A DNA stretch of 64,000 nucleotides from Lentisphaera araneosa HTCC2155 (GCF_000170755.1 NZ_ABCK01000024.1:1-64000), one strand, 5' to 3'; counted from the stretch's first letter, positions 3,966 through 58,555 are shown. The notes: generated from the sequence alone by a model not told the origin. A program made the numbers and translations.

Positions 3966-3969
3966 CGCT

Positions 3970-26597: not shown

Positions 26598-26617
26598 TAC
26601 CATGATTTAGGACTAAT

Positions 26618-30520: not shown

Positions 30521-30610
30521 ACTAAGAATATTTCCCCATTTAAATACTCATTACCACCATCCTATCAGGATATGTAATATATGAGATAAATGCTTTATAA
30601 AGATGAGCTC

Positions 30611-30630
30611 GTCTGAGACGTTTTTAAAAT
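30611..30630 (+). repeat. GTCTGAGACG repeat, copy 3
   Basis: GTCTGAGACG followed by TTTTTAAAAT, 90 bp after the stop of the lipoprotein-protease gene. The next copy is 31 bp further on. Confidence 0.4.
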
Positions 30631-30641
30631 AAAAATAATCT

Positions 30642-30661
30642 GTCTGAGACGCGATAAAAAT
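30642..30661 (+). repeat. GTCTGAGACGCG repeat, copy 4
   Basis: GTCTGAGACGCGATAAAAAT differs from copy 1 at one position (GCGA instead of GCGT). It lies 75 bp before the next gene. Confidence 0.45.
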
Positions 30662-30735
30662 AATAAGTCTAAGTTGTGTTGTTTACCTTGATCGCTTAAG
30701 ATATGTAAAGGTTTTTATTTAAATGGAAGAATACA

Positions 30736-40600: not shown

Positions 40601-43136
40601 ATGGAAAGAGTTTTCAAATATAGCTAATATTGTGATCAGAGTTTTAGGCGAGAAGCGCAGGATTAGTGGTAATAATTATTTTAATAATGCTTCACTCCCT
40701 AAGGAACTAAAGAGTTTACTTAAGAAAAAGTTTCCAGGTGATGAAAACAGTATACTGAATTTACTTAAGGATTTTTTACTTAGTAAAGGCGTTTTAGAGT
40801 CTGAGGAAAATCTTGTTATCAAACCTTCTGGTCTATGGTTTTCTCCTTGTAAAATGGGAGATAAAATTTGGAGGTGTAAGCAATGTTCAAGTGTACACCT
40901 TAATAATGAAATACATTTATGTTGGAATTGTCGATCCCCTCTAGATCCTAAAGATTTTAGATTAAAATCGAATTCAGATTCTGAGCAGGATTATTATGCA
41001 TATCTAGCATCATCCAAAGCTGAAACTTTTAGATTACATTGCGAAGAGTTGACGGGTCAAACATCCCATGAAAATGCAGTTAAACGCCAGCGCTTATTTC
41101 AGGATATAATATCAGGTGATAAGGAAGTGTCTTTAATTGATTGCATTGACGTATTGAGTGTGACAACGACAATGGAAGCAGGTGTTGATATAGGTTCCTT
41201 AATGGCAGTAATGATGGGTAATGTTCCTCCGAAACGTTTTAACTATCAACAGAGAGTTGGCCGTGCGGGTAGACGGGGTGCGGGGCTTTCAATTGCGTTG
41301 ACTGTTGCACGAGGCAGAAGTCATGATGAAACTCACTTTTGTGATCCTCAGAGAATGATTTCTTCTAATCCTACACCTCCTTATTTAGACCTTAAACGAC
41401 AAGCAGTTTTAAACAGAATGGTTAGTAAAGAGTTGCTTAGGCAGGCTTTTAGGGTATGTGGTGTGAAAGCTAAAGCTGATAGTGTGCATGGTGAATTTGG
41501 TGATTGTGAGACGTGGGCCATGAGCGAAAGACTTATAAAGTTATGGTTTACAAAAAATGATCAGGTCATTACAGATACCTGTGATTTTTTAACTTCATCG
41601 GAAGATATGAAAGAGGAAGCAATTCGATACGCCAAGGAGGAACTGTTAGTATCGGTAGATAAGATTTCCAAAGACACTAAATACCATCAGAAATCCTTAA
41701 GTGAGCGGTTAGCTAATGCGGGTGTCTTGCCCATGTTTGGTTTTCCGACACGCTCTAGAAATCTATATAGTAACATCCCCAAATCTAGAAATAGTGAAAA
41801 TGTGATTAACCGTGATTTAGATATAGCGATAAGTCAATTTGCTCCAGGGGCAGAGTCTGTAAAGGATAAAGCCGTTATCACAAGCGTAGGGATTGTCGAT
41901 TATGTGTACGAAAAAGGTAGAGCGAAAGAAGCCGATGGTCGAGGAGCCATACGGCAGCTTGGTTCATGTAAAAACTGCGGTGCTTTAATTTGTGATGATG
42001 TTCCAGAGAATAAATGTTCATTATGCGGTTCTGAATCAGATTATATGAAATTAACCACTTGGGAACCAAAGGGGTTTACAACAGAACATTACCAAGAAAA
42101 GGATTTTGAAGGTTCATTTGAATGGACTGCTAGAGCTTCAATGGCCAGATTGGCTAATGAACCGGTAATGTTTGAGCCGATAGAGGGGATTAACCTAGAG
42201 TGTTCTAACGAAGAAAAAATGATAACAAGCATCAATGATAATGATGGTAAGTTATTCCAATTTAATGAACATGAATCCAAACCTGGTTTATGGCTGGAAT
42301 CGACCTGTCTACCATTTGAAGGGTGGTGGAAAGATCAATTAAATACAGATAGATGTGAAAAAGTAGGTTTATCTTCTTCCAAATATACAGATGTGTTATT
42401 ATTGAGACTGAGTAAAGTGTCTCCGAATATAGACCTCAGCCCTTTCGGTGATAATTCGCTATACGCTAGGGCCGCCTATTACTCATGGGGAGGACTTATT
42501 CGCAAAGCAGCCTGCATATCATTAGATATCGAACCTGGTGAACTGGATATGAATATACGACCTGTAAAAGATGCTGAGAATGAATTTTGTGAAGTGTTTT
42601 TAGCTGATCACTTGGAAAATGGAGCGGGTTATTGTCGCTACCTACGCGATAATATGTATGAATCAATTATAAAATTATTAGATACTGATGGAGAACTGAA
42701 TCTACACTTAAACGCTGAGGCTCACTCTACTTGTGATAGCTCTTGCTATGATTGTTTAAGAGATTATCACAATTCTGATTTTCACGCTATTTTAGATTGG
42801 CGCCTAGGTGTTGATTTGATGAATTTATGCAAAGATGCTACATATATGCCTTCATTAAAGAGCGGCCATTGGCAGAGTATAAAAGATATTGCTGTAAAAA
42901 GTTTATGCTCAATTAATAAATCCTTAGTTGTGAAACATGTATCTAATATTGATTGTATGTATGATGGGGAAAAGGTAGTGGCCGTACTAATTCACCCATT
43001 ATGGGCGAGTAATCATGAAGGTTTAGTCGAACTAGCCATAGACTTAAATATCAATGTCGATGAATTACCAGTTTGTAATATTTTTGATGTTATGCGAAGA
43101 CCAGGTTGGTGCTTATCTAAACTGAACTTGAGTTGA
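37695..43136 (+). CDS. DEAD/DEAH helicase with DUF1998-type C-terminus, DruE-like
   Basis: An 1813-residue superfamily 2 helicase. Motif I TTGTGSGKTEC (~115-125), LLYPLNALAEDQM (~153), LLITNYSML (~268), motif II VDELHTYRG (~314-322), SSASLPS (~353), TDSRQDAAKLAAG (~750), motif V MEAGVDIGSL (~1160) and motif VI QRVGRAGRRG (~1186-1195). Zinc-like pairs are CNCG/CKSCGD (~566-580), CKQC/CWNC (~1060-1080), CKNCG/CSLCG (~1425-1450) and the DUF1998-type CDSSCYDCLRDY (~1680). The large size and C-terminus match Druantia DruE and MrfA-like helicases. It shares the helicase-DUF1998 plan with the 2096-residue protein upstream but lacks its VELDG nuclease-like tail. Confidence 0.85.
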   Translation: MNDAVTIANNLKDMYLRFLDSAMPLRYEELMAERRALLSEKGMISQDPLFEAVPRYEEYKTLYEASKDLDLDKDFASFVETGLFTKIHGQSMKMYKHQFQSLKAVCKSNKNLIVTTGTGSGKTECFLLPMIHNIIKESRTWGEDKPKAVRALLLYPLNALAEDQMIRLRKSLDGVSTEENEGPRKWLDEHRNGHRITFGRYTGKTPISGVRSSSAEQKLKNEKWAMERIYKEVKDNEDLRYFYKSFDEDSAEVWDRWSMQEEPPDLLITNYSMLNIMLMRSLEENIFEQTRKWLADDPWLKGEANEPTRIFHFIVDELHTYRGTSGTEVAYLVRLMLNRLGLNADSPQLRFLASSASLPSSAETRKYILEFLGSSDDFKDDETFNKKYSIIEGSPLRYIPSHEKIFKNKQKVFSDFFESWKRAPKGKKQGPVYELAQHLRVDLKGEEEVKASLGIICQEAEIIKSYHENIPQQAESLEDISQRVFGVVDQIATQGLITILTESRVSNLPGAAAPQPLRMHAFFRNTLGLWACSNKNCTEVSDPDGTRNLPVGKLYTQPKLVCNCGARVLDLLLCKSCGDIFLGGYRSKLNEKKVEYLVHGQPNLEQIPATMTAKELYGEYAVLWLGKPGENKPIDNAWTETSGEVNKLNCTWKEANYNAFKGRVEPGKIGANSYLFSITSNKTKKYDYNCQAMPNKCPQCDSDGRRKDGKSFPPVGLHRTAVQRVNQLLLDALFREFDDEQAKKLVVFTDSRQDAAKLAAGIELDHYRDLVRQSLMQGFDKLGGDKGIALKYLEAGSPKDFTEEEKEQFKDFRARDSKLFNAIRDFLDEMASEEELKQIEQLKDKKSGPYPMGRVTNLVWEDLLSLGVNPAGPNPSRQTKKVKLDADGGYVTTSWRELIDWEGRKPENKDAFDLLPQAKTLKNELDQAAADECVFTMFAHKRKSVEALALGTLTFKPSDIEFDTDGLLSWKEFSNIANIVIRVLGEKRRISGNNYFNNASLPKELKSLLKKKFPGDENSILNLLKDFLLSKGVLESEENLVIKPSGLWFSPCKMGDKIWRCKQCSSVHLNNEIHLCWNCRSPLDPKDFRLKSNSDSEQDYYAYLASSKAETFRLHCEELTGQTSHENAVKRQRLFQDIISGDKEVSLIDCIDVLSVTTTMEAGVDIGSLMAVMMGNVPPKRFNYQQRVGRAGRRGAGLSIALTVARGRSHDETHFCDPQRMISSNPTPPYLDLKRQAVLNRMVSKELLRQAFRVCGVKAKADSVHGEFGDCETWAMSERLIKLWFTKNDQVITDTCDFLTSSEDMKEEAIRYAKEELLVSVDKISKDTKYHQKSLSERLANAGVLPMFGFPTRSRNLYSNIPKSRNSENVINRDLDIAISQFAPGAESVKDKAVITSVGIVDYVYEKGRAKEADGRGAIRQLGSCKNCGALICDDVPENKCSLCGSESDYMKLTTWEPKGFTTEHYQEKDFEGSFEWTARASMARLANEPVMFEPIEGINLECSNEEKMITSINDNDGKLFQFNEHESKPGLWLESTCLPFEGWWKDQLNTDRCEKVGLSSSKYTDVLLLRLSKVSPNIDLSPFGDNSLYARAAYYSWGGLIRKAACISLDIEPGELDMNIRPVKDAENEFCEVFLADHLENGAGYCRYLRDNMYESIIKLLDTDGELNLHLNAEAHSTCDSSCYDCLRDYHNSDFHAILDWRLGVDLMNLCKDATYMPSLKSGHWQSIKDIAVKSLCSINKSLVVKHVSNIDCMYDGEKVVAVLIHPLWASNHEGLVELAIDLNINVDELPVCNIFDVMRRPGWCLSKLNLS

Positions 43137-44853: not shown

Positions 44854-45174
44854 ATGTTAAAAACTAAAGGGATTTCTTTTAATGCAGCTATTGTTGAACA
44901 GATTCTAAGTGACGATTCTAGAATTGAAATTTGTACTAGAAATTTCACCAAAAAGGAAGGTGGATCAACCATTTCGAAATCTCTAGGTATCGGTGTGTAT
45001 TTTAAGCCAAGTAGATGGGAAAAGAACGCGGAGCTTGAAACTGTATTGAGACAGTTTTTCAATGATTATCAAGATCCCTTTGAGGCTTTTAAGGCATTTG
45101 CTGAAGCAGAAGAAAAAAATGCCAATAGTAAAGTTGTCTATGATTATAATTTCATGGATAATCTAACTAATTAA
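44854..45174 (+). CDS. Stand-alone copy of the HNH-partner domain (106 aa)
   Basis: The whole protein aligns without large gaps with the last ~100 residues of the HNH protein at 55462-56574: ISFNAAIVEQILSDDSRIEI here against ISFNESIVEWIFEDESREEI there, then CTRxF, GIGxYF/Y, RW, QxPFEAFxAFA and NSKVVYDxxF. No catalytic motif is seen, so it is likely a DNA/target-binding or interaction domain. ATG 44854 follows GAGGAAAAG. It pairs with the PD-(D/E)XK gene, suggesting nuclease and specificity part in two chains. Confidence 0.7.
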   Translation: MLKTKGISFNAAIVEQILSDDSRIEICTRNFTKKEGGSTISKSLGIGVYFKPSRWEKNAELETVLRQFFNDYQDPFEAFKAFAEAEEKNANSKVVYDYNFMDNLTN

Positions 45175-45187
45175 ATACTAAGCCATC

Positions 45188-45199
45188 TTTTGTCCTAGG
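45188..45199 (+). repeat. TTTTGTCCTAGG half element
   Basis: Same right half as the TGTCCT hairpins (identical CTAGG end to copy 1), but the left arm is not conserved. It lies 14 bp after the stop of the 106-residue gene and 22 bp before the structured repeat. Confidence 0.35.
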
Positions 45200-45220
45200 T
45201 CTAATGTGATAGTCAAAAGG

Positions 45221-45291
45221 TACATCAAGACGATCGAGAGATCGAGCAACCGGGGTCAGTCCCACGGTGCTAAGCGAAGTTCGCAGATGTG
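45221..45291 (+). repeat. Structured intergenic repeat, copy A
   Basis: About 71 nt matching copy B at 56624-56695. Outer stem TACATC/GATGTG, inner stem starting AGC/GCT (45245-45247 with 45269-45271), and a small hairpin GCGA-AGT-TCGC (45274-45284). Between the copies AGC/GCT changes to AGT/ACT, keeping the pair. It follows the 106-residue gene and precedes the amidohydrolase gene. Confidence 0.5.
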
Positions 45292-45324
45292 CAGATTTAA
45301 TCTGAAAAAATACTGGAGATCATT

Positions 45325-46074
45325 ATGATTTTACACATTCCCCATAGTTCGACTTTTATACCCGAAGAATACCTAAGTGAGTTCTTGCTGAGTTCGCAAG
45401 ACTTGCAGCAAGAATTACTAAGCATGACGGATCATTTCACAGATGATTTATTTGATTGGAAGTGGGATAGGGCAGTCTTTCCCGTGAGTCGCCTCTTGGT
45501 AGATGTCGAGCGTTTCGAAGATGATGCGGAGGAAGAGATGGCCGAGCGGGGCATGGGCGTACTTTACGAAAAAGGTTCACAGCTTCAATCACTGCGTCGC
45601 CAGGCAAGTCCAGACTTACGCAAAGAATTGCTGGATCGTTATTATCGGACACATCACAAGAAGTTGGAGGCCATGGTGGATTATAGTCTTTATAAACGCA
45701 ATAAGGCCTTGGTGATTGATTGCCATAGCTTCAATGCGATTGCGCGGCCCTATGAAGGCTATACGGGTGCTGAGCGTCCTGAGATCTGTCTTGGAACGGA
45801 TGCTTTCCATACACCACAGAACTTAGTCGAAGGCTTTCGTAAGTTTTTTGAAGAACGAGGCTTCAGTGTAAGGATCAATGATCCCTTCTCTGGCTGCTTA
45901 GTGCCGAAGAAGTTTTATCAAAAGGATGAGCGTGTACACGCCATCATGATCGAGCTACGCCGTGATCTTTACATGAACGAAGCGACGGGAGAGAAGACTG
46001 CCGCTTACTCAGAGCTGAAGCAAACCTTAGCTGACTTAGAGCAAGCCATCATGAATAGTGAGTTTGCTAATTGA
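45325..46074 (+). CDS. N-formylglutamate amidohydrolase family protein
   Basis: A 249-residue zinc hydrolase of the HutG2/FGase family, which splits N-formylglutamate or similar N-acyl amino acids. LHIPHSSTFIP (~3-13), TDHFTDDLF (~35-43), VDVERFEDD and VIDCHSFNA (~130-138) contain the expected metal ligands His and Asp/Glu. ACTGGAG lies before ATG 45325. No histidine-degradation gene is near it, so its substrate is open. It looks like an ordinary chromosomal gene and may mark the right border of the defence island. Confidence 0.85.
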   Translation: MILHIPHSSTFIPEEYLSEFLLSSQDLQQELLSMTDHFTDDLFDWKWDRAVFPVSRLLVDVERFEDDAEEEMAERGMGVLYEKGSQLQSLRRQASPDLRKELLDRYYRTHHKKLEAMVDYSLYKRNKALVIDCHSFNAIARPYEGYTGAERPEICLGTDAFHTPQNLVEGFRKFFEERGFSVRINDPFSGCLVPKKFYQKDERVHAIMIELRRDLYMNEATGEKTAAYSELKQTLADLEQAIMNSEFAN

Positions 46075-46085
46075 AGGAGAATCAA

Positions 46086-46466
46086 ATGAAGAAACTAATG
46101 ATTATACTCACATTACTTCCTGTGGTGGTCCTATCGAGTCCTCAAGAAAGTATCAAAAAATCACTGGATGCCTGGGCTCCTTTATCGGTAATTATCAATA
46201 ATAAAGAACTTATCATTGCGATGAGCGCACATCACATTAGGGATAAGCTTTATCAGGAACTTATGATCAAGGGCATTATGGCCTATGCGGGGTTAAAAGA
46301 CCAGAGAGCCTTGTATCGAATTGAGAAGATTATGATCTTAAACAAATTCAAAAATCAAGGCTATGTCTTCACCGGCAATACACAAAGATTAACTGACTTG
46401 ACAGAACTCAGTGGGAGTAATCAAAAAAGACAATTAATGAAATATAGCAGGCGCTATGAGCCTTAG
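46086..46466 (+). CDS. Small secreted hypothetical protein (126 aa)
   Basis: ATG 46086 (MKKLMIIL...) follows GAAGGAG; a TTG at 46071 would add five residues before the signal. The N-terminus is a Sec signal peptide (KKLMIILTLLPVVVLSS) with a likely cut near residue 17. The mature part is small, basic and helical; I do not recognise it. It starts 11 bp after the amidohydrolase stop and is probably in the same operon. A CTATGAG...CTCATAG inverted repeat with a 16-nt loop (46454-46483) spans its end. Confidence 0.65.
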   Translation: MKKLMIILTLLPVVVLSSPQESIKKSLDAWAPLSVIINNKELIIAMSAHHIRDKLYQELMIKGIMAYAGLKDQRALYRIEKIMILNKFKNQGYVFTGNTQRLTDLTELSGSNQKRQLMKYSRRYEP

Positions 46467-46634
46467 GTGTATTTTTCTCATAGAGAGAGTGTGGGATATG
46501 AGTCTAAAAATCGGGGAGGAAATAATTTATTAACTTTTCTTCTGTACCCGTGTAAGAATATGAATTAGTCAATCATTTAGTAAGTAAGGACCTCGATCTG
46601 TGTAGGTTTAGAATAAGATGAAAAGGACGTATAC

Positions 46635-47510
46635 ATGAAATTCAGTTATTTTGCAGTGCTTGTATTATTGTCATCTAGCTTACAAGCCAACCTAGTCGGT
46701 ACTAGACGAAATATTACAGTTATCAAAAAAGGGAATATAACTCAAGGATATAGTTTAGATTACCAACAAAGTATGTGGGTATCACACCAAGTAAAATTAG
46801 GAGAAAGAGGGCCTATTGTGAATAAGCTTCAAAATACAGATGGTTTTGGAAATATGATTTTAGATAGAGATCATTTTAGTCCATATTATACACAAAGTTT
46901 ATTAACAAGTATATTGTTAGGCTCGGAAGAGAAAAAGTTCAGTAGCGAAATCTCGTTATGCACACTAATGGATATTTCTCTTAAGAGAAACTGGATCAAT
47001 ATGGATGTGGCTTTGAGTCGGCAGGATAACACAAATCCAGTTTTTATAATTAATGGGGTGGTTTTTACTAGTAAAGTGAAATATGCATTTGATAAGGGAT
47101 TTCCGATACCGGCCGGGTTTTACAAAGTGATTTATTACCCAGACAGTAAACAGGCAATTGCTTTTGTGATGTCAAATAAGCCACTTGAGAAGGTTTTTAA
47201 AAACTATGCGGTTCCCATAGCTAGACTTGAAAAGTTAGTTGGCTATAAAATATTAGAGGAACTTGATGATAAGTACAAATCTCAGGTAGATAAACCATTA
47301 GTGGGAAAATTGTGGAACTCCGTAGAAAATAAGGATAGTCAAAGTTCTTATTTATTAATGAGTAACGTGCGGTCATACGGAAACAAGATTATGTTTTTAC
47401 GAAATGAAATGTTGAATAGTATGAGTAATTTACATATTATCCCTATACAGGAATTAAAGAAAAGTTTTGAGGGAAAATTTAAAGCATCGAGACTTCTAGA
47501 TTCGATATAA
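46635..47510 (+). CDS. Secreted hypothetical protein (291 aa)
   Basis: A clear Sec signal peptide at the start (FSYFAVLVLLSSSLQA, cut near residue 18). The mature protein is mixed alpha/beta and has no motif that I recognise; segments such as VFIINGVVFTSKVKYAFDK and AGFYKVIYYPDSKQAIAFVM suggest beta sheet. AAAAGGAC lies before ATG 46635. It precedes the sigma-factor cassette with a short coiled-coil gene in between, which makes a link to the kinase pathway possible but unproven. Confidence 0.65.
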   Translation: MKFSYFAVLVLLSSSLQANLVGTRRNITVIKKGNITQGYSLDYQQSMWVSHQVKLGERGPIVNKLQNTDGFGNMILDRDHFSPYYTQSLLTSILLGSEEKKFSSEISLCTLMDISLKRNWINMDVALSRQDNTNPVFIINGVVFTSKVKYAFDKGFPIPAGFYKVIYYPDSKQAIAFVMSNKPLEKVFKNYAVPIARLEKLVGYKILEELDDKYKSQVDKPLVGKLWNSVENKDSQSSYLLMSNVRSYGNKIMFLRNEMLNSMSNLHIIPIQELKKSFEGKFKASRLLDSI

Positions 47511-47535
47511 AAATAAGAATCGTAAAATAACGAAA

Positions 47536-47796
47536 TTGAGAGAACAATGGAAGAAAGAAGAAAAGATTGTAAGAAAAGCAGTGATCAAAAGTTATACACC
47601 GATTTTACAGAGATATAAAAATAGGTTAAGACCTCTCGAACAAGAACTTAGCCGTTTGATAACAAAAAATAAAGTCGATAAAAAAGCTATTGAATATAAA
47701 AAAGCTATTGAATATTCTAAATTACAACTAAAAGATTTTTACGAGAAAGTAGCTCATTATGATGTCACTAAGGCATTGAGAAATTTAAATAAATAA
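47536..47796 (+). CDS. Small charged coiled-coil protein (86 aa)
   Basis: Lys/Glu-rich helical peptide, possibly from TTG 47536; no good ribosome site is seen, so the start is uncertain. It contains a duplicated six-codon unit KKAIEY encoded by two 17-bp identical copies 18 bp apart (47681-47697, 47699-47715). It lies 6 bp before the sigma-factor gene on the same strand. Confidence 0.45.
   Translation: MREQWKKEEKIVRKAVIKSYTPILQRYKNRLRPLEQELSRLITKNKVDKKAIEYKKAIEYSKLQLKDFYEKVAHYDVTKALRNLNK
47681..47715 (+). repeat. Tandem 18-bp in-frame repeat
   Basis: Two copies of AAAAAGCTATTGAATAT, 18 bp apart, encode KKAIEY twice within the coiled-coil gene. A length change by one unit would keep the frame. 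Confidence 0.7.
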
Positions 47797-47802
47797 TTAC
47801 CT

Positions 47803-48384
47803 ATGGCTTTTACAACTAGAAAAACAATTATAGAGCAGATCAAGGCTGGCGATGATATAGCTTGGCAAGATTTTGAAAAGGCTTATCGGGGACTTATCAT
47901 TTTAAGAGGTCGAGATCGTTCTTTGGATAACAGTGAACTACCAGACCTTGTCCAAGATGTGATGCTATCATTATTTAAATATGAGTCGGTTTTTAAATAT
48001 GAGAGTAGTAAAGGACGTTTTCGAGATTACCTAAAACAAATCATTGACCGTGCCGCGTTTAAAATGATACGAAAACGCAGTAATGATCTCCGAAAAATCC
48101 AAGCAGTTAGTGACAGGATTAAGAGTATGGAGAATTATCATGATACCATGGAAAAAAAATGGGAAGACGAATGGCGTGCTGTAATTGTGGATGAGGCTTT
48201 AACAAAAGTAAGATCAGAAGTAAATGAAGCGACTTATGAAGCTTTTGTAATGTTGATGGTTGACGGCATAAGTGCTGAATTGGTAGCGGACTCTCTGGGG
48301 ATTAGTAAAGAATCTATTTATGTGGCGAAGCATAGAGTTTTAAAGCGATTGAAGTATGCAGTAATGAATTTGGAGGATACCTAA
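47803..48384 (+). CDS. ECF-type RNA polymerase sigma factor
   Basis: A 193-residue sigma-70 family factor with region 2 (~15-90; DFEKAYRGLIILRGRDRSL, LPDLVQDVMLSLFKYE, RFRDYLKQI) and region 4 (~135-185; EATYEAFVMLMVDGISAELV, LGISKESIYVAKHRVLKRL). Region 3 is absent, as in ECF factors. The stop overlaps by one base with the start of a 59-residue zinc-finger gene, itself overlapping the Ser/Thr kinase gene. That order is typical of kinase-linked ECF cassettes in planctomycete-type bacteria. It probably directs transcription of envelope genes in response to the kinase. Confidence 0.85.
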   Translation: MAFTTRKTIIEQIKAGDDIAWQDFEKAYRGLIILRGRDRSLDNSELPDLVQDVMLSLFKYESVFKYESSKGRFRDYLKQIIDRAAFKMIRKRSNDLRKIQAVSDRIKSMENYHDTMEKKWEDEWRAVIVDEALTKVRSEVNEATYEAFVMLMVDGISAELVADSLGISKESIYVAKHRVLKRLKYAVMNLEDT

Positions 48385-48563
48385 TGAAATGTCTTAATGA
48401 ATACCAACTTGAGAAAATCATCACTGATGAAAAAGGGCTGAAAATTTTATTATGGAAAAAGCATCTAAAAAATTGTTCCTCCTGTCTTGCAAGACTAAAG
48501 GAAATAAATGATAATATAGATTTTTCAAAATCGGTTAAATGGATGCACAGAGGGGAGCAGTAA
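48384..48563 (+). CDS. 59-residue zinc-finger protein, anti-sigma-like
   Basis: Read directly from the sequence: ATG 48384 overlaps the sigma-factor stop by one base and its TAA (48561-48563) overlaps the kinase ATG. The product begins MKCLNEYQLEKIITDEKG and contains KHLKNCSSCLARL, i.e. H-x3-C-x2-C, the metal site of zf-HC2 anti-sigma domains. No membrane segment is present, so it would be a soluble, minimal anti-sigma factor sitting between sigma factor and kinase. Its function is inferred from the motif and position. Confidence 0.75.
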   Translation: MKCLNEYQLEKIITDEKGLKILLWKKHLKNCSSCLARLKEINDNIDFSKSVKWMHRGEQ

Positions 48564-51500
48564 TGAGTGAGGTGAGTAAAGTTATTGGTAAATACGTTCT
48601 GAGAGAATGCTTGGGATCTGGTGCGATGGGTAGTGTTTGGTTAAGCTCACATCCTCGTCTTAATTTACCAGTAGCAGTAAAAGTTTTAAGTCGTTCACTT
48701 GCAAAAGAATCAACTGAGTACGTGGAGCGATTCATCGAAGAAGGAAGACTTGCGGCGGCGATTAATCACCCAAATGTTATACGTATTTACGATGCAGATC
48801 ACGACCAAGGTTATCACTATCTTGTTATGGAATATGTCGATGGTTGCGATGTCGAGAAAATGGCAGCAGTAAGGCAAGGGAATTGCTTAGAAATACTAGA
48901 AATCATTGAGATCGCGTTAAAGGTGTCTGAAGCATTGGAAGAGGCCCAAGAGCATAAAATCATTCATCGTGATATAAAGCCCGAAAATATTTTAGTAACT
49001 CAAAATGGTAAGATCAAACTTGCAGACCTAGGAATAGCTAAAAAAATAGGAAGTGATAGTTCCGTTACAGAAACAGGCTATTCCTTGGGTACCCCTTATT
49101 ATATGTCTCCTGAACAGGCTCTTAATGTAAAATCTATTGATCATAGAAGTGATATCTATTCACTGGGTGCAACTATGTATCATTTGCTTACAGGGGAAGT
49201 TCCCTATAAAGGAGATAGTCCTTTTGCGACAATGATGATGCATTCTCAAGAGTCTCTTGAGCATCCCCAAGCTCGCAAAGGTGATTTGCCCGATGAGGTA
49301 TGTGCGATCGTCTGCAAAATGATGGAGAAAAACCCCAATGATCGTTATCAATCTTATGAAGAACTAAGAACTGATTTAACTTTATGTAAGTTTAATAGCA
49401 GTGAACTCAGTGATTTGGTTTCAAATTATGGCTTTGATACCTTGGCAAAAATATCTATTCCTAAAAAGGCTGCGAAGAAAAAGGCTTTAAAAAAGGCCAC
49501 TCCTGTACCAGTAGTAAAAAAGGCTCAACGAATCTCGAAAGACATGAAAACCTTGTCTCCCAATGAATACATCATTGATTTTAATGATTCTGCAAAGCCA
49601 GTCATGCAAAAAGCTAAGGGTGGTGATGATCGTAAAGTAGCAGATCTGTCATCTACTCAAGCCTCACAGATGATTGTCCAGGATATCAAGAAAGAGCAAG
49701 ATACTATCCAGAAAAATAAATCTGCAGAAGCTAATAAACTCAAGAAAAAACCAAGAAAAAAATCCCCCAAAAATCTCACTCAACGATTAAGAATCAAAGA
49801 GCTTAAGAATCCCAAGCTTCGTTGGTACGAAAAAGCTATAGTTATCGGCTTTTGGTTATTAGGGCCATTATTGATTTTGGGATATTTCATGTTTTTTTCT
49901 AGTGAAGCACCAGCCGAGGATAGTGAATTAAGTTCTCGGGATACAACGGTTCCCGTACTTAAGCCAATTAGTACTAAATCCACGGTAATAAAGAAACCAC
50001 TTATACGTAAAAAACTCACAGTTGTAAAAGCTGAGGCGATTAAAAGAGTAACAGATAATAAGCTTACTTTAGAGGACTTAGTGAATAGTTGCAGTGATAA
50101 ATCAAAAGTCGTTATAGAAGGTGATACACTGACGATTAACGGCAATATAACCATTCAAGTAGATGGTCATTTAAAGAATAAATCTATTCGGGTTGCACGT
50201 GGTTTCAGGCCTATAATTAAAAGTAAAAAACCTCGCGGATTGATAATAGAAGGCGGGGCAATTTCCGTTTATTATGCCTCACAAGTCAGAATGGAATCGG
50301 TTATTTTATCAAAGGTTAAGCTTGGTAAGTGGTCACGTTATTATCGCTACCCTTATAGTTCTAAATGGGAATTTAAAGATTGTCTATTTTACCAAACTAA
50401 TCTCGGTATTAAAACGACTGATTACGGCTACAAATATCAAGATTGTGTATTTGTGGAATCCAATTTTTCAGCTTCTCGTACTGTGAGTAGTGAAAAGCAA
50501 TATCAGGATCAGTGGAACGTAGTAGATAATTGCATTTTTTATAAGTGTGTACTCTCTCCTCAATTTCTATTTTCGACTAAAGACTGCTCTCTACTTGATT
50601 GTACTCTGAATAAAGCCAGTAGCGCATATACCCTAAAAGAGGGTTTGGTAGTACCCCTGTTGACTGCAGAGCCAAAAACTGTAGACGAATTAAATCAAGC
50701 GGTTAATAATCCTTTAATGAGATTTGTTTTTAATTCGTCTAGTACTTATACAGGTTCTGTTTTAGCAGCTAGCAATGAAACAAGAATTCTAGAAGTAGAA
50801 AGAGCTATGAAATCCTTAAAATCAAAAATGGTGATCTCTTTAAAATCAAAGAAAGCATTTGTGATGTCGGCCCCAAAAAATGCCCCTAAGGAAGATTTAA
50901 ATCAATATGTAGATGAGCATTTAGGATTTGTAGGGCATAAACACAGCGATAACAAATATAACTTTAATATTGTAGAAGGTACGAAACGTACAAAATTGAA
51001 CTTATGGGTAGATCCGATTAATGGGAGTGCTTGTCGAGGTTGGGTTTATTTAATTAGTCCTGAAGGCAGAAAAACTCATTTATTAACTTGGTCGCCGCAA
51101 TTACTTAAAAATCTCAGATTAAAAACACCGGTAAGATCCTTTCTTGATTTAAAGCCTATAGAAATAGATATATCACCTTACATCAGTCTGACAGGTGAGT
51201 ATACGGTTGAATTTAAGCAATTGTTTTATAATCGACACCTTCCTTATACACCAAAGGAAGAAAACCATACTGCTAATGTCGATGGATTAATCATTTATAG
51301 AGCAGAATTAAAAGATCATTGGAGCTCGTATAAAGGGGACTTGAAGGAACACCAAAAAGGAGCTTTTTATCACGAAGGTAAGTTAATTAAAATGTTTAAA
51401 GAAGCCTTGACGTGGGAAGAAGCGGATAAAAAATCTAGGGCAATGGGCGGTAAACTTTATTGTGTTGATACAAGTGATGAGCATTGGATTCTACGTCACC

Positions 51501-53551
51501 AATATAATGGACAGAGTTTTTGGGTGGGAGCCAAGGAAACCGATTCTAAACTGGAGTATGTCAATGGTGAAAGTGGCTACGATTATGTGAGTACACACTT
51601 TAAGCCTAATACAGGTCTGCCATATGTGGCCTTAGAGAGAAGAAAGAGTCGATCTTACTCAGGCGGGACAAAAATAATGGATTATTATTTTTATCCAAAG
51701 AATCATAAAGTAAATCAGTTTTTATGTGAATGGGGAGGCAAGCCTTATAGAGAGTTACAAAATACAAAAACTGCATCTAAAAAGTATACTGGTGTTCTAT
51801 TTGATAAATCTTATAGTTTGGAAATTTTCAAAGATGAAATTATTCAAAATTACAAAGGTACACAAAGTACATATGCTCTTGATAAAATTACTAAGTCAGG
51901 GGATTTAATAATCATTGAATGGCTTGAAGGTGTTCAGCGAAAAACAATTATTGACCTAAAAAATGAAGGCTATGCTTCTGTAAGTTACTATGAAAAGGGT
52001 ATTAGAAAATGGCAAACCACTTTAGTTAAGAAAGGGAGTATAAAATCATACTCTAATGATTATCATAAAAACTTTATTGGCACATGGGAAATTTTGAGTA
52101 GTGGAGGAAGGGGCAGCTCCTGGCAGCCAGGGAAAAAATTCATCATAAACACTGACTTAACGACTAATTATAAAGGCGTGTTTCGCACTAATTACAGTGG
52201 AGTAGTGAAACCAGGGACTAATGCTTTGAGCGTAACACACGGTAAATATACAGATGTCTTTCAGTACCCATACACCCCATCAAAACAGCTTTATACATTA
52301 TCCGATGGACGTGAACTTTATTTAAAGAAAGTTAGCGATGGTAAAGATTGGGCAAAAATTAAAATTTCTGGAAAAGGTTACTCATTAAACACTTTGAAAA
52401 ATGGGGAGAATGCGTGGTTAAATAGAACATATAAATGGTTGGATATACCAAGTCAATTTGAAGGTCTGGATTTCGCGAAAAAATATGGTGGAGCGAACTG
52501 TACTATCAATATCACATGTGAAGAAAGTGGGTATATTTATTTACTAGGGAAGCCAAATGACTCTTACGAAGAGACCGGTTATGTCGTGGGTTATTCAGAT
52601 AGGAAAGGGACTAAAATGCCTATGACAAAACGTTATCTCAAAAAAGATCAAAAATTAGTTTTACAAACGAAGGGCTGGAGTGATGGAGTTCTTATTTTAC
52701 CACAAACTGAAAGTACACAATCAAACAGTGTTTATGAGATGTTAGTAACATTAAAAACAAGCGATGTTAAAAATGCAGGTACTGATGATATCGACATATA
52801 TGTACAGATTAATAATGATCCTAGGTTTAAATATAAACTTGATAATCCTGGATTTAATGATCTCGAAAGAAATTCAGTTAATCTTTTTGAGAAAATCAGA
52901 TGTAGTATTGAGTCAATAGATAAAATAAAAACGATTTCTATTGGCACTAATAAAGGTAATGATGCGTGGCTCTTTGAAGCAGCTATTTTTCAGTTTTTTA
53001 AAGATGGATTAAAATCCAGGCCAATTAAGTTTCAGAAATCACTGTGGTTTTCTACAGAGAAACAGGATATTAACGAACTTCGGGCTGTAAATAAATATGA
53101 TTTTAAAATAACGGACCCAATTAAGCTCAATATGAATGATTTAAGCAGTACTTATATATGGAAACTACCTAGTACAGTATGGGCAGGAGAGAGGCATTAT
53201 AATAATATTCATAAATTCAAAATCACTGCTGAAGTCAATAAGCCCAGACTGACTTATTATATCAACTCAGCTACTTACTCATCTACAAATGGTATAGTCA
53301 TTTTGAAAACCCCTCAAAATAAAAACATCATTATATCCAAGTGGGATTCATCAATTCGTAATATTAAAATCAACTGTGTAAATGCGTATAGTCCGACTCG
53401 AAAAGAGGGTACAAAAGTTGATGTTGACTTATCTCTTTATTTAACTGATCTTGGTGAGTATAGCCTTCAATTCTTATACAAAAGTGGCAAAGCCGCCGCC
53501 GCAATTTATGATGCTGAAATAAAATCTATGCCTAAAATATCAGTTAAGTAA
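48563..53551 (+). CDS. Membrane Ser/Thr protein kinase with lectin-like extracellular region
   Basis: A 1662-residue Hanks-type kinase. Kinase domain ~10-270: LGSGAMGSVW loop, VAVKVL lysine, IIHRDIKPEN catalytic loop, LADLG (DLG instead of DFG) and SPEQA. A Lys/Ala-rich linker leads to one membrane segment (~420-443, AIVIGFWLLGPLLILGYFMF). Outside follow a parallel beta-helix-like part (~500-700), a C-type-lectin-like domain (~940-1060; TWEEADKKSRAMGGKLYC, FWVGAKE, FLCEWGG) and beta-rich repeats. The start is ATG 48563, overlapping the zinc-finger stop; an upstream opening at 48539 would add 8 residues. The TAA lies two bases before the IS630 left end. It likely senses an envelope ligand and controls the ECF factor. 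Confidence 0.88.
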   Translation: MSEVSKVIGKYVLRECLGSGAMGSVWLSSHPRLNLPVAVKVLSRSLAKESTEYVERFIEEGRLAAAINHPNVIRIYDADHDQGYHYLVMEYVDGCDVEKMAAVRQGNCLEILEIIEIALKVSEALEEAQEHKIIHRDIKPENILVTQNGKIKLADLGIAKKIGSDSSVTETGYSLGTPYYMSPEQALNVKSIDHRSDIYSLGATMYHLLTGEVPYKGDSPFATMMMHSQESLEHPQARKGDLPDEVCAIVCKMMEKNPNDRYQSYEELRTDLTLCKFNSSELSDLVSNYGFDTLAKISIPKKAAKKKALKKATPVPVVKKAQRISKDMKTLSPNEYIIDFNDSAKPVMQKAKGGDDRKVADLSSTQASQMIVQDIKKEQDTIQKNKSAEANKLKKKPRKKSPKNLTQRLRIKELKNPKLRWYEKAIVIGFWLLGPLLILGYFMFFSSEAPAEDSELSSRDTTVPVLKPISTKSTVIKKPLIRKKLTVVKAEAIKRVTDNKLTLEDLVNSCSDKSKVVIEGDTLTINGNITIQVDGHLKNKSIRVARGFRPIIKSKKPRGLIIEGGAISVYYASQVRMESVILSKVKLGKWSRYYRYPYSSKWEFKDCLFYQTNLGIKTTDYGYKYQDCVFVESNFSASRTVSSEKQYQDQWNVVDNCIFYKCVLSPQFLFSTKDCSLLDCTLNKASSAYTLKEGLVVPLLTAEPKTVDELNQAVNNPLMRFVFNSSSTYTGSVLAASNETRILEVERAMKSLKSKMVISLKSKKAFVMSAPKNAPKEDLNQYVDEHLGFVGHKHSDNKYNFNIVEGTKRTKLNLWVDPINGSACRGWVYLISPEGRKTHLLTWSPQLLKNLRLKTPVRSFLDLKPIEIDISPYISLTGEYTVEFKQLFYNRHLPYTPKEENHTANVDGLIIYRAELKDHWSSYKGDLKEHQKGAFYHEGKLIKMFKEALTWEEADKKSRAMGGKLYCVDTSDEHWILRHQYNGQSFWVGAKETDSKLEYVNGESGYDYVSTHFKPNTGLPYVALERRKSRSYSGGTKIMDYYFYPKNHKVNQFLCEWGGKPYRELQNTKTASKKYTGVLFDKSYSLEIFKDEIIQNYKGTQSTYALDKITKSGDLIIIEWLEGVQRKTIIDLKNEGYASVSYYEKGIRKWQTTLVKKGSIKSYSNDYHKNFIGTWEILSSGGRGSSWQPGKKFIINTDLTTNYKGVFRTNYSGVVKPGTNALSVTHGKYTDVFQYPYTPSKQLYTLSDGRELYLKKVSDGKDWAKIKISGKGYSLNTLKNGENAWLNRTYKWLDIPSQFEGLDFAKKYGGANCTINITCEESGYIYLLGKPNDSYEETGYVVGYSDRKGTKMPMTKRYLKKDQKLVLQTKGWSDGVLILPQTESTQSNSVYEMLVTLKTSDVKNAGTDDIDIYVQINNDPRFKYKLDNPGFNDLERNSVNLFEKIRCSIESIDKIKTISIGTNKGNDAWLFEAAIFQFFKDGLKSRPIKFQKSLWFSTEKQDINELRAVNKYDFKITDPIKLNMNDLSSTYIWKLPSTVWAGERHYNNIHKFKITAEVNKPRLTYYINSATYSSTNGIVILKTPQNKNIIISKWDSSIRNIKINCVNAYSPTRKEGTKVDVDLSLYLTDLGEYSLQFLYKSGKAAAAIYDAEIKSMPKISVK

Positions 53552-53553
53552 AT

Positions 53554-53572
53554 ACGCATAAATTTTCAAATA
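53554..53572 (+). repeat. IS630 left inverted repeat
   Basis: 19 bp, 16 of them matching the right end. Confidence 0.8.
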
Positions 53573-53618
53573 ATAAAAAGCTTTTTGATCAGGGTGTGCT
53601 ATTGTAAAAATAAACATC

Positions 53619-54663
53619 ATGAAACTTAATATAAAACTAACTGACAAAGAGAAGGCTGCGTTGCACCAAGCAAAATTGCAAAAGGATATTCCTGACGAAA
53701 GAGTCACTATGATTCTGTTGGCTGGAGAAGGTATGAAAGCAGACCAAATAGCTCCAATTGTAGGAACTAATGCGCAAACTGTTCGTCGGCACCTCAAATC
53801 CTATATCTTAGACTCAATTGAGGGTCTAAGTCGTGCATTTTCAGCAGGACGCCCCAGTAAAAGAAATGAGCAACTTATCCCTTTTCTTACAAAGATACTC
53901 AAGGAAGATCCTAGTGAATATGGCTATCAAAAATCTACTTGGGATAGTCCTATGATTATAGAACTCTTTCATAAAGACAAAAACGAAACGGTGAGTCATG
54001 ATACAGTTTCCCGAGCTATGAAAGATATGGGCTACTCGTACAAAAAGCCACAAAAATCTCCGAGCATAAAAGCGCCATCAAAAAAAGAAAAAACAAAGGT
54101 TATTGGGGATGCTATCTCCTTTATAAAGAAAAAGATGGAAAACGAAGAACTTGAAGTTTTCTGCTTAGATGAAAGCCATTTCACCAACGAACCTTATCTG
54201 ATTCGTGGGTATTTTAAAAAAGGGAGAGAAAATAAAAATTCCGACTCCTGCGAAACGCGAAACAAAAAGCCTATTTGGTGCATTGAATCTGAAAAATGGA
54301 GATTTCTTTTGGAAGAGCTCTGATCGTGGAAATTCAAAAACATTCATTCAGTTTTTACATCAATTACGTGCTCATTCGAAAAAGCCCATGATCGTCATTG
54401 TTGACAATGCAACTATTCATAAATCAAAAAAAGTAAAGGCTTTTTTGGGAAAATACCCTGATGTTATATTAATTTTTCTTCCTCCATATTCTCCTGAGTA
54501 TAACCCAGTCGAAATCATCTGGAGAATATTAAAATGCCATGTCGTTGGAGCACGTCAAATATGCGGTGGTATAAAAGAAGTCTTAAGCAGAATCCGCAAG
54601 AAAACACGACAGTGGAGTTTTGGTTTTGAGAACTTAAATGTTGGTGCAGGCATATGGAAATGA
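53619..54663 (+). CDS. IS630-family transposase in two frames
   Basis: The first frame (53619-54323) gives the N-terminal helix-turn-helix part (IAPIVGTNAQTVRRHLKS) and the first catalytic Asp (CLDESHF). The second frame (open from GTG 54205 to TGA 54663) gives the second Asp (VIVDNATIHKS) and the Glu (YSPEYNPVEIIWRILK). Together they make a full DDE enzyme of ~340 residues. The change of frame is +1, and the switch region around 54208-54235 contains TTTTAAAAAAGGGAG, a slippery run. Some IS630 elements use programmed frameshifting; decay by an indel is the alternative. Confidence 0.8.
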
Positions 54664-54664
54664 A

Positions 54665-54683
54665 TATTTGAATAATTTTGCGT
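54665..54683 (-). repeat. IS630 right inverted repeat
   Basis: 19 bp, complementary to the left end at 16 positions; TA follows at 54684-54685. Confidence 0.8.
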
Positions 54684-54788
54684 TAATACTTATTTAATGA
54701 CCCGAAGATCTCTGATTCTCATAACAAAACTACTTTAGGTAACGTAGTCAGTGAATTCTTTGAGAAACCCAAAGAAGTTAAGAAACAG

Positions 54789-55292
54789 ATGACAATTAGT
54801 TATGAAATTGAATATGCAGATAAAGACCTGAAGAAAAGACAGTTAGAAAATCTTATAGAGAAACGAAATTATTTGGTTGACCACTTAATACAGGACTGGG
54901 ATGGAGATTGCGAAGGATCATTTAAAGAAGTATTAGATAAGCTTACTCAATCTCATGAAGAAGCTCGTGTTGAACTTAAAGATATCCAGGAAAAACTTAA
55001 GGGTTTGAGTGAGCTTATGACAGTAAATATGACGGCTTTAAAAGATCCTGTTACTCAAGTTCGCATGATGAATCCCAATTTTAATGCCTTATATGAATTA
55101 GCCATAAGTCGTTCCAAGGAATGGATTAGTTTGAATGAAGCGGGTAAATATATTTTAAAAACAACGGGTGTGTGTTTTACGAAATCTCAGTTTCGAGATG
55201 GTTTTAAAAAGCTTAGTGATTATATGAATAATTCAGAGTTTCTAGAGCTGAATACTGTGGATGAATTAATTTGTTTTCGTATTAAAAAATGA
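54789..55292 (+). CDS. Hypothetical helical protein, probably 5'-truncated by the IS
   Basis: From ATG 54789 it encodes 167 residues, largely coiled coil at first (DKDLKKRQLENLIEKRNYLVD, EEARVELKDIQEKLKGL) with a C-terminal part SLNEAGKYILKTTGVCFTKSQFRDGFKKL that resembles a helix-turn-helix. The frame stays open upstream to 54687, right at the IS edge, and reads as plausible protein (GNVVSEFFEKPKEVKKQ) without any start codon or ribosome site. I infer that the original gene began farther left and lost its 5' part when the IS arrived. I do not recognise the family. Confidence 0.55.
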   Translation: MTISYEIEYADKDLKKRQLENLIEKRNYLVDHLIQDWDGDCEGSFKEVLDKLTQSHEEARVELKDIQEKLKGLSELMTVNMTALKDPVTQVRMMNPNFNALYELAISRSKEWISLNEAGKYILKTTGVCFTKSQFRDGFKKLSDYMNNSEFLELNTVDELICFRIKK

Positions 55293-55428
55293 ATCCAGAA
55301 TAATTTATTGATCATCATTATCTGAGATATACTCAGCTGCCTGAAAAAGATATAGCCGTACGCATTTCGTATAGTTATTGGTTGTATTTCATAGGTTTAG
55401 AAATGATTTTAAACTAAGTATTATGATA

Positions 55429-55444
55429 AGACATATTTTGTCCT
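55429..55444 (+). repeat. TGTCCT hairpin, copy 5
   Basis: AAGACA-(TATTT)-TGTCCT with a GACA/TGTC stem, 18 bp before the HNH gene. Together with the related sequence at 56583-56600 it brackets that gene. Confidence 0.4.
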
Positions 55445-55461
55445 GGCTTTGAGGATATTGT

Positions 55462-56574
55462 ATGAAAATTCAAACCTTTGAGAGGATTATTATGTGTAAA
55501 GGAAAAAATATTTGTAGTGAGTTGGGCGATGACCCGAAATCATGGGATGAAAAAAGTACATTACTCCCGCCGTTTTGGATTAGGAAAGAAATAGAAACTT
55601 TTATATCAGCAGTAGAATCCGCATTTCGAGGTGATTTATCACATTCAAAAGAAATTTTAAAAACTATTAAGTCCGATGACTTACGGGATTGGTTTGTCGA
55701 CCATGGTCAAAACACGGGGAAATTCAGGAATGCTTATTTTCAAAATAAGAAAGAAAATATAATTCCCAAAGAAGAGTTAGAAGAAAAAGAGAAACGCATT
55801 TCATCAAAGTACGAGAAAGAAGTGCTAGAGCGTGATTACTATACCTGCCAATACTGTGGCGGGAAATTAATTCCAAACGAGGTGTTAAAAGCCTTTAGTA
55901 AGTTAATTGGAGTGGAGGATTTTTCATATACAGGTAATACTAATGCAGATAGGCATGGCATTCATTTCTATGTTAAACCCACTATAGATCATGTGATTCC
56001 TTGGAATATGGGAGGATTAGGTAATCCCAAGAATTTTGTGGCATCATGCTGGGGATGTAATTTTGGGAAAGCAGGTTGGAGTTTAAAACAGTTAGGACTT
56101 GATGACCCAATGAAGAATCATTTCAAAAATGATGACTGGAAAGGGTTAAAAGAGCTGTTGTACTTACCAGAGGAGGAGCTGATTAACACAGAAATTAAAT
56201 TTTGCTCTAAACCAAAAGAAAATCACGAGAGTAAAAATAGCCAAGTGAAAAAGTCTTCATCTAATCAATTGAAGACAAAAAATATTTCATTTAATGAAAG
56301 TATAGTTGAATGGATATTTGAGGATGAATCTAGAGAAGAAATCTGTACTCGCAAATTTAATAAAGGTAAAGGCGGAGAAACAGTATCTAAACAATTAGGA
56401 ATAGGCATTTACTATAATTCCAAAAGGTGGTCGGATAACAAAGACTTAGAAAAGTATTTACGCAAACTTTTTACTAATACACAAAATCCATTTGAAGCTT
56501 TCAGCGCATTTGCTAAACAAGAAGTAAATAATCCTAATAGCAAAGTGGTATACGATTTCACTTTTAAAGGATGA
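55462..56574 (+). CDS. HNH endonuclease with C-terminal partner domain
   Basis: A 370-residue protein (360 if it starts at ATG 55492, which has GAGAGGATT just upstream). The central HNH domain shows YTCQYCGGKL (~128-137), IDHVIPWNMGG (~175-185) and ASCWGCNFGKAG (~194-205): two CxxC zinc pairs around the catalytic DH. The lysine/serine linker at ~250-272 leads to a ~95-residue C-terminal domain shared with the stand-alone protein at 44854. HNH nucleases of this form are used in restriction; the C-terminal domain probably provides target or partner recognition. Confidence 0.82.
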   Translation: MKIQTFERIIMCKGKNICSELGDDPKSWDEKSTLLPPFWIRKEIETFISAVESAFRGDLSHSKEILKTIKSDDLRDWFVDHGQNTGKFRNAYFQNKKENIIPKEELEEKEKRISSKYEKEVLERDYYTCQYCGGKLIPNEVLKAFSKLIGVEDFSYTGNTNADRHGIHFYVKPTIDHVIPWNMGGLGNPKNFVASCWGCNFGKAGWSLKQLGLDDPMKNHFKNDDWKGLKELLYLPEEELINTEIKFCSKPKENHESKNSQVKKSSSNQLKTKNISFNESIVEWIFEDESREEICTRKFNKGKGGETVSKQLGIGIYYNSKRWSDNKDLEKYLRKLFTNTQNPFEAFSAFAKQEVNNPNSKVVYDFTFKG

Positions 56575-56582
56575 AAAAATAT

Positions 56583-56600
56583 AGAACATAAAATGTCTAG
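56583..56600 (+). repeat. TGTC-type hairpin remnant, copy 6
   Basis: AGAACATAAAATGTCTAG, a diverged relative of the TGTCCT hairpins, 9 bp after the HNH gene stop and shortly before the structured repeat copy B. Confidence 0.3.
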
Positions 56601-56623
56601 AGTAGGGTGAAGTAGTACTTACA

Positions 56624-56695
56624 TACATCAAGACAGTCGGATATAAAGAGTAAGCGTGGACAGTCTCATGGTACTTTGCGAGCTTCGCAGATGTA
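56624..56695 (+). repeat. Structured intergenic repeat, copy B
   Basis: About 72 nt matching copy A at 45221-45291. Outer stem TACATC/GATGTA, inner AGT/ACT (56649-56651 with 56673-56675), hairpin TGCGA-GCT-TCGCA (56677-56689). It lies between the HNH gene and the DEDDh exonuclease gene. Confidence 0.5.
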
Positions 56696-56748
56696 CAGAT
56701 AAATATAGAGAGAGAAATGAGTGAGCAAAAGATAAGTAAGGTTAATGA

Positions 56749-57246
56749 ATGGACTTTGTAGCAATAGATTTTGAAACTGCCACGGCAAAGCGAAATAGTG
56801 CTTGTGCAGTGGCAATTATCACAGTAGAGAAGGGCGTGATCGTAGATGAGTATAGCGAGCTAATTCAGCCACCTAATAATGAATATAGTTGGCGCAACAT
56901 AGATGTTCATGGAATTGAGCCACGTCATACAATGTACAAAGAGGATTTTGAAGACCTATACCCTGAAATCAGAAAACGCCTCACGGGGAAATTAGTGGTC
57001 GCACATAATGAGTCATTTGATCGCAGCGTGATGACTCGATCCATGGAGTATTACGATTTGGATTATGCCGACTTGGGTGTGGCTGATCGTTGGGTATGCA
57101 CCGTAAAACTTTATAAAGCTCAAGGCTTCAAACCCGCAAAACTTAATATCCTTTGTGATCATTTCGGTATCCCACTCAAGCATCATGATGCCTTATCAGA
57201 TGCCCGTGCCTGTGCAGAATTGTATAAACGCGTGCAGGAGATTTGA
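56749..57246 (+). CDS. DEDDh 3'-5' exonuclease (DnaQ-like)
   Basis: A 165-residue stand-alone exonuclease of the DnaQ/epsilon superfamily. Motif Exo I is AIDFETA (~5-11), Exo II is VVAHNESFDRSVM (~83-95), and Exo III is HHDALSDARACAEL (~146-159) with the DEDDh histidine. Proteins of this size may act in DNA repair or RNA turnover. ATG 56749 has only AAGGTTAATG upstream; no better start is visible. No polymerase gene is near. A 5-bp hairpin follows the stop. Confidence 0.88.
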   Translation: MDFVAIDFETATAKRNSACAVAIITVEKGVIVDEYSELIQPPNNEYSWRNIDVHGIEPRHTMYKEDFEDLYPEIRKRLTGKLVVAHNESFDRSVMTRSMEYYDLDYADLGVADRWVCTVKLYKAQGFKPAKLNILCDHFGIPLKHHDALSDARACAELYKRVQEI

Positions 57247-57553: not shown

Positions 57554-58555
57554 TCACCACACCTCGGTTGCAATCAAAGCTTCTAGTTCTTCTTCTTTTT
57601 CATCTTCAAGCTTAGTCAAAAAGTCTAAGCCTGTTGAATCTTCAATATCATTGATAGAAGTTAAGTACCTTGCATGAAAGTATTTCTTGGTGGTGGGGCT
57701 CTTACTCACAGGTTTGTGCGGATACATAAAAGCCATAGTTTTCAGTTCTTCACCATCGAGGCGAATAATTATTTTATAAAAGAAATCAGGAACGGCAACT
57801 TTCTCTTCGCCTTTGTCACCAATCCATAAGGAAGGTTTCTTGTCTTGATAGGCTCCGCCGCAAATAATCCATATGCGACCGTAGTCATCAGCCCAGTCTT
57901 TAGTTTTCTCTTCCATGTCTAGCCATATTCCCGCGTTAAATTTCTGTACTTGCGGTGAAGCGTTAATTGTGGTGTGAGTGTTCCAATCTGCATTGGCACC
58001 AAGTCTCCACGCAATACTTTTCATGCAAAGGTGTCCGCGGCTAAAACCTGAATGCTTATAGGACTTATCATGTGGAGCTTCATCTTTATACTTATCATCT
58101 TCAATCCAAGTAGATGGTCGATCAGGAGCTTTACCAACAGGCATATTTGCGGGTTTAGCTCTCATCTCATAGGCGACCCAATCGGGGTTACGAGTAAGTA
58201 GGCCGTCTTCATTATCGTCAAAGCTCACAATATAGGCTCTAAACTCACGGACGAGTTCCTGTGGCTCAGTAGTCCATTTGTCGTGTTCGTAGCTTTCCGT
58301 GAGGATTATGGGCTTATATCCGCTAGGTAATCGCTTGTCAGTAGTCTCATAATTAGATTCTTCTTGGACTACTTTGTTAGGTGTGGTTTTAGGAGAGTTC
58401 TTGTTAATTGCAGTACTAACTGATTCACTGACTTCAATCGCTCTGGTTTTAGTACGTTCAGCTATCTCTGGGAGTTTGTCTTTATTGCTATAGGCTACAA
58501 AGCCAATCACACCAATTAAGATGGTAACTAAGAGTTTATTGATAATGGATTTCAT
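57554..58555 (-). CDS. Membrane-anchored DNA/RNA non-specific endonuclease
   Basis: A 333-residue NucA/NUC1-type nuclease. An N-terminal membrane anchor (LLVTILIGVIGFVAY, ~8-22) is followed by a polar linker and the nuclease domain from ~90. The catalytic motif DRGH appears as SRGHL (~173-177) with the general-base histidine kept; the metal-binding asparagine is in TINASPQ (~197-203). It would work outside the inner membrane, degrading nucleic acid for nutrition or as a barrier to incoming DNA. The paralogue at 62245-63237 is very similar over almost the whole length. Confidence 0.85.
   Translation of the reverse strand: MKSIINKLLVTILIGVIGFVAYSNKDKLPEIAERTKTRAIEVSESVSTAINKNSPKTTPNKVVQEESNYETTDKRLPSGYKPIILTESYEHDKWTTEPQELVREFRAYIVSFDDNEDGLLTRNPDWVAYEMRAKPANMPVGKAPDRPSTWIEDDKYKDEAPHDKSYKHSGFSRGHLCMKSIAWRLGANADWNTHTTINASPQVQKFNAGIWLDMEEKTKDWADDYGRIWIICGGAYQDKKPSLWIGDKGEEKVAVPDFFYKIIIRLDGEELKTMAFMYPHKPVSKSPTTKKYFHARYLTSINDIEDSTGLDFLTKLEDEKEEELEALIATEVW

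Follow-up and report, generated by a model that had tools for sequence, protein, structure and literature searches.

Riboswitches of the SAM-I/IV class (RF01725; SAM-I-IV-variant, Weinberg et al. 2010, PMC2864571) are defined by a plain P2 that has no internal loop (PMC2864571) and by the presence of P4, P5, and PK-2 and the absence of PK-1 (PMC6890682). SAM-IV riboswitches (RF00634), unlike SAM-I/IV riboswitches, have a split P2 and PK-1 and lack P4 (PMC6890682). Ligand recognition involves the C44-G58 pair, which together with G11 recognizes the methionine part of S-adenosylmethionine (SAM) and is highly conserved (PMC3764141).

We analyzed a 64,000-nt stretch of DNA from Lentisphaera araneosa HTCC2155 (the window) that holds two copies of a structured intergenic element. 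Copy 1 resembles SAM-I/IV riboswitches in P2, the core, P4, P5, and, likely, PK-2 but differs in its target, which belongs to the N-formylglutamate amidohydrolase (FGase) family. The core and P4 are also common to SAM-I riboswitches (RF00162), but copy 1 lacks the SAM-I P2 kink-turn/internal loop and PK-1 and has an additional P5 and putative PK-2, features of SAM-IV. Judged by its sequence, copy 1 is a SAM-I/IV riboswitch and belongs to an RNA class that is already known. Copy 2 differs from that class in its pocket and is without P2, P5, and PK-2. We are highly confident of the overall reading, in which copy 1 is a SAM-I/IV riboswitch in the 5' leader of the FGase gene and copy 2 is a decayed relative derived from an old duplicated leader.

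RESULTS

Copy 1 and its expression platform

The first-pass annotation had described two copies of the element, at 45221-45291 and 56624-56695, each lying after a gene that carries a shared partner domain and before an unrelated chromosomal gene. Both copies are present in that gene order, and their similarity is far above chance (blastn E 2.3e-8). The outer stems (TACATC/GATGTG at 45221-45226 and 45286-45291; TACATC/GATGTA at 56624-56629 and 56690-56695), an inner set reading AGC/GCT in one copy and AGT/ACT in the other, and a hairpin with a 3-nt loop were likewise confirmed. The features of copy 1 and its surroundings are as follows.

44854-45174, + strand, partner-domain gene (106 aa), 5' neighbor of copy 1 and not part of the switch
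45205-45213, + strand, possible extended -10, TGTGATAGT (from its position, by eye)
45217-45320, + strand, copy 1, complete aptamer and expression platform (cmscan, RF01725)
45220-45226 with 45286-45292, + strand, P1 (fold and Rfam alignment)
45231-45244, + strand, P2, enclosed by P1 (fold and Rfam alignment)
45245-45271, + strand, P3, enclosed by P1 (fold and Rfam alignment)
45274-45284, + strand, P4, enclosed by P1 (fold and Rfam alignment)
C45247-G45269, + strand, equivalent of the ligand-contact pair C44-G58 (Rfam alignment)
45248-45249 and 45268, + strand, equivalents of A45/A46 and of U57 (Rfam alignment)
45292-45304, + strand, P5 hairpin, CAGAUUUAAUCUG (Rfam alignment)
45257-45260 with 45312-45315, + strand, putative PK-2, P3 loop CAGU with ACUG (sequence)
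45314-45318, + strand, predicted Shine-Dalgarno sequence TGGAG of the FGase gene (sequence)
45325-46074, + strand, FGase-family gene, downstream of copy 1 (PF05013, E 7e-50)

A permissive Rfam scan of 45150-45340 gave RF01725 as the sole match, at 45217-45320 (+), and the cmscan score was 53.7 bits (E 1.6e-8; model positions 1 to 99 of 99), with a curated cutoff of 41.1 bits. The match requires permissive filters. A scan of the whole window against Rfam at the gathering threshold returned nothing, a false negative with respect to copy 1 that is evidently due to the speed filters. Whole-genome searches of the family with RF01725 also found no match, but copy 1 itself was among the sequences missed, so this genome may hold further SAM switches; whole-genome searches of the family genomes with RF00162 gave no match, and a tRNA search found none. 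The predicted fold of copy 1 has an energy of -32.7 kcal/mol (z -5.2 versus shuffles). Between this genome and the sister genome, the element is 94% identical, and the third codon positions of the FGase gene are 76% identical.

Copy 1 reads GTACATC...GATGTGC (45220-45292). Its P2 (CGAUC-GAGA-GAUCG) has no internal loop, and PK-1 is absent, matching the SAM-I/IV definition. In the Rfam alignment, copy 1 carries the core nucleotides CAAGA, CAACC, GGUG, and AGAUG, and the CAACC/GGUG core was also found in all 17 matches from the class. The candidate PK-2 comprises four pairs located as in class members and on its own is not significant against shuffles. In 13 of the 17 class members, five or more Watson-Crick pairs can form between the P3 loop and the tail, and 10 of these 13 reach a shuffle P value of 0.03 or less. 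The Rfam match of copy 1 stops 4 nt short of the FGase ATG (45325).

By analogy with the family, copy 1 would be expected to bind SAM and to lower FGase expression by masking the Shine-Dalgarno sequence. Its transcript may start near 45220, at P1, as suggested by the extended -10-like element, which has a counterpart (TGTAATAGT) in the sister genome; a simple promoter scan did not report an extended -10 at 45205-45213. At high SAM levels, the ligand would sit between P1 and P3, as in the family, and the P3 loop CAGU would pair with ACUG just 3' of P5 to form PK-2. This pairing would mask the overlapping Shine-Dalgarno sequence (ACUGGAG, 6 nt before the ATG, with GGAG at 45315-45318), and FGase translation would drop, whereas at low SAM levels the FGase gene would be expressed. 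Direct control of this kind is less clear in the sister genome, where a gap of ~110 nt with a short open frame separates the riboswitch from FGase. That interval (L013:1360-1485) contains a repeat also found near RAYT transposons, and the stop of the short open frame overlaps the FGase start.

Conservation of the riboswitch-FGase link

Copy 1 lies within a block of conserved synteny (45192-46206) outside the variable defense island. The riboswitch of the sister genome precedes the same FGase gene (RF01725, 51.9 bits), with a truncated RAYT transposon upstream of it instead of a partner-domain gene. RF01725 matches were found in 15 of 197 genomes of the class. An FGase search run independently in 388 genomes of the phylum coincided with RF01725 matches at three places. 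At these places, in genomes G021, G187, and G387 of another family, the riboswitch ends ~70 to 85 nt before an FGase homologue (36 to 39% identical). The three riboswitches scored 48.7, 42.6, and 39.7 bits, the latter two values being near or under the cutoff of 41.1 bits. They are diverged from copy 1, and their P1, P2, and PK-2 helices pair via different letters (PK-2 being CAGGA/UCCUG, CGGGA/UCCCG, and CCGAG/CUCGG). On the basis of the sister genome and these three genomes, and of two independent searches, the link between riboswitch and FGase is conserved in two families. Computation establishes the identity of copy 1, its helices, and its conserved link to FGase; the function of the riboswitch is tied to the downstream FGase gene, and the partner-domain gene upstream is only a neighbor.

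By the curated cutoff, the FGase-family gene does not encode HutG (TIGR02017, 55 bits versus 278.75). FGase seems to be an unreported target of SAM-I/IV riboswitches, and we found no open-access paper linking the two. Riboswitches of the class also lie upstream of metK (L078 and L079), a position expected of an RNA that senses SAM. Three further SAM-I/IV riboswitches (L070, L075, and L081) have a small protein nearby with the motif (R)KM(I/V)I.PN.P..V.NW, which belongs to no Pfam family.

Partner domain and genomic surroundings

The partner domain (~100 aa, with 59% identity between its two occurrences) occurs as a stand-alone gene that follows DruE-type Druantia genes and, a second time, as the C terminus of an HNH protein. 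It precedes both copies by 47 to 50 nt in this genome because one segment was duplicated. The first-pass annotation had linked the element to this domain, with the question of whether it always follows it. That link was not supported: in the sister genome and the three genomes of the other family, the riboswitch stands before FGase without the partner domain, and the sister copy follows a truncated RAYT instead. The partner-domain gene had no match in Pfam, NCBIfam, or PADLOC, and searches for the domain found it in none of the other genomes among the 388 of the phylum and found no relatives in phages or viral contigs. A search of genome contigs gave one 17-residue chance match, and a protein search in plasmids gave only HNH matches. 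The AlphaFold model of the domain had a pLDDT of 49. Searches of phages, plasmids, and viral contigs with the DNA of the element found none.

A large defense island spans 1059-45174 and includes a DISARM/DrmD-like helicase and a GmrSD-like protein, as well as a type IIG restriction enzyme (3922-8673), a PD-T7-1-like protein (20836-22164), a DruB-like protein (33201-34742), and a DruE-type helicase (37695-43136). Repeats of the form GTCTGAGACGCG(T)TAAAAATA at 26569-26599 and 30601-30662 resemble the REP ends (GGTGAACTCGTCTGAGACGCGCTGAAAATA) of the sister genome's RAYT transposons. In that genome, three near-identical RAYT units lie around FGase (L045:2429-8934). One of these units interrupts a small secreted-protein gene after FGase, and another, a truncated one, lies immediately 5' of the riboswitch. 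Elsewhere in the window are an IS630-like transposase split into two overlapping frames (53619-54663) and two paralogues, 4.7 kb apart, that resemble secreted DNA/RNA nonspecific endonucleases (57554-58555 and 62245-63237).

Divergence of copy 2

Copy 2 lies between the following features.

55462-56574, + strand, HNH protein upstream of copy 2 (PF01844, E 3e-5)
56269-56571, + strand, partner domain at the C terminus of the HNH protein
56618-56705, + strand, copy 2, diverged SAM-I/IV riboswitch homologue (covariance model built without copy 2)
56624-56629 with 56690-56695, + strand, P1 of copy 2, kept
56749-57246, + strand, DnaQ/RNase T-type 3'-5' exonuclease gene after copy 2 (PF00929)

Copy 2 reads TACATC...GATGTA (56624-56695). 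A covariance model trained on just two sequences, copy 1 and its sister-genome counterpart, found it at 34.3 bits (E 1.4e-5), the next-best match in the window being at 11 bits, and blastn aligned it with the sister-genome copy at E 1e-13. Copy 2 matched no Rfam family, and RF01725 was unmatched up to E 5. P4 is kept and the J1/2 CAAGA stretch is intact. No partner for PK-2 was found, parts of P3 are broken, and the fold is no better than those of shuffles (z -1.2).

The two copies had been thought to differ by changes that preserve pairing, one of them compensatory. Only 1 of the 26 pairs compared changed on both sides with pairing kept, and in copy 2 pairing is disrupted in P2 and in part of P3. 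The change read as compensatory falls in the ligand pocket: the equivalent of C44-G58 is U56651-A56673 in copy 2 and C-G in all 19 other copies (17 class matches, copy 1, and the sister copy), a difference suggesting that the function of copy 2 was lost or altered. The equivalent of C47-G56 is broken (G-G). Covariation among the three sequences was no better than in column shuffles, 157 of 500 of which reached it, and a test of whether the changes in copy 2 avoid both ends of the element gave a P value of 0.11.

The similarity of the two segments runs from the partner domain through the intergenic stretch into the element, which makes the copies parts of a single, anciently duplicated segment. 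The first-pass annotation had envisaged that the repeat might reflect a recent duplication of the whole segment; the shared segment is real, but the duplication is old. Copies 1 and 2 are 73% identical, whereas the partner domain linked to them is 43% identical at third codon positions; copy 2 was therefore probably subject to selection during much of its existence, which speaks against simple neutral decay from the outset. The partner domain and leader would have been duplicated long ago, with a long period of selection and then loss. By synteny, the exonuclease gene's own conserved upstream region begins at ~56714. Upstream of the exonuclease gene in the sister genome, there is no trace of the element, and the exonuclease start region is the same.

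DISCUSSION

The likeliest reading of copy 2 is that of a degenerate paralogue that, to go by its pocket and missing helices, probably no longer senses SAM; a variant switch is less likely. It is unlikely that copy 2 still works as a switch for the exonuclease gene or transcript, in the form of a variant aptamer with U-A in place of C44-G58, a reduced P2, and an altered affinity or ligand. The intact P1, P4, and J1/2 CAAGA, the retention of a pair at the changed pocket position, and an identity between the riboswitches that is much greater than that of the linked third codon positions are all consistent with such a switch. Against it stand the loss of P2, P5, and PK-2, the broken C47-G56 pair, a fold equal to that of shuffles, the existence of a single instance, and a sister-genome exonuclease gene that has the same start region without the element. 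More doubtful still is the narrower proposal of a SAM-I/IV variant whose ligand was changed by the C-G to U-A replacement and P2 loss, placed before a DnaQ-type exonuclease beside a defense island; a changed ligand is possible but unsupported.

Two readings treat the element as something other than a riboswitch. An RNA partner of the shared-domain proteins (toxin-antitoxin or guide-like), belonging to the upstream gene, would fit the constant spacing behind the partner domain and the continuous similarity from domain to element. It is very improbable, given that the element precedes FGase without the domain in the sister genome and in three genomes of the other family and that the element is a known riboswitch class. 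We give equally little credence to a folded DNA site, such as a recombination site or transposon end (attC or the REP of a RAYT) bordering the defense island, which would account for the position of the copies at the junction of variable defense DNA and conserved genes and for the RAYT adjoining the element in the sister genome. The sister RAYT units terminate in a separate repeat (GGTGAACTCGTCTGAGACG) and exclude the element, the arms have no attC boxes, and the Rfam match is full length. REP sequences of RAYT transposons are, like the element, short structured intergenic DNA beside a RAYT in the sister genome, but their sequence is unlike that of the element, which lies outside the RAYT unit. 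Two candidates were rejected directly: an integron attC site, by inspection (boxes RYYYAAC / GTTRRRY absent; outer arms TACATCA / AGATGTG), and a RAYT-associated REP, by comparison of three RAYT units, the ends of which carry a different repeat.

We therefore retain the reading of copy 1 as a SAM-I/IV riboswitch and of copy 2 as its decayed relative. The suggestion of a functional RNA or a folded DNA site survives in part: copy 1 is a functional RNA as a SAM-I/IV riboswitch, but copy 2 has lost most of the required parts, and a DNA site is not needed. A candidate for a new defense-linked RNA is thereby removed, and a known switch takes its place. The case also illustrates that a "compensatory" pair change may sit in a ligand pocket and signify loss of function. 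That an FGase-family enzyme, not HutG by its curated model, follows a SAM-sensing leader in two families of the class suggests a role for this enzyme in methionine or SAM supply, which may consist, for example, in liberating methionine from its N-acyl or N-formyl derivatives.
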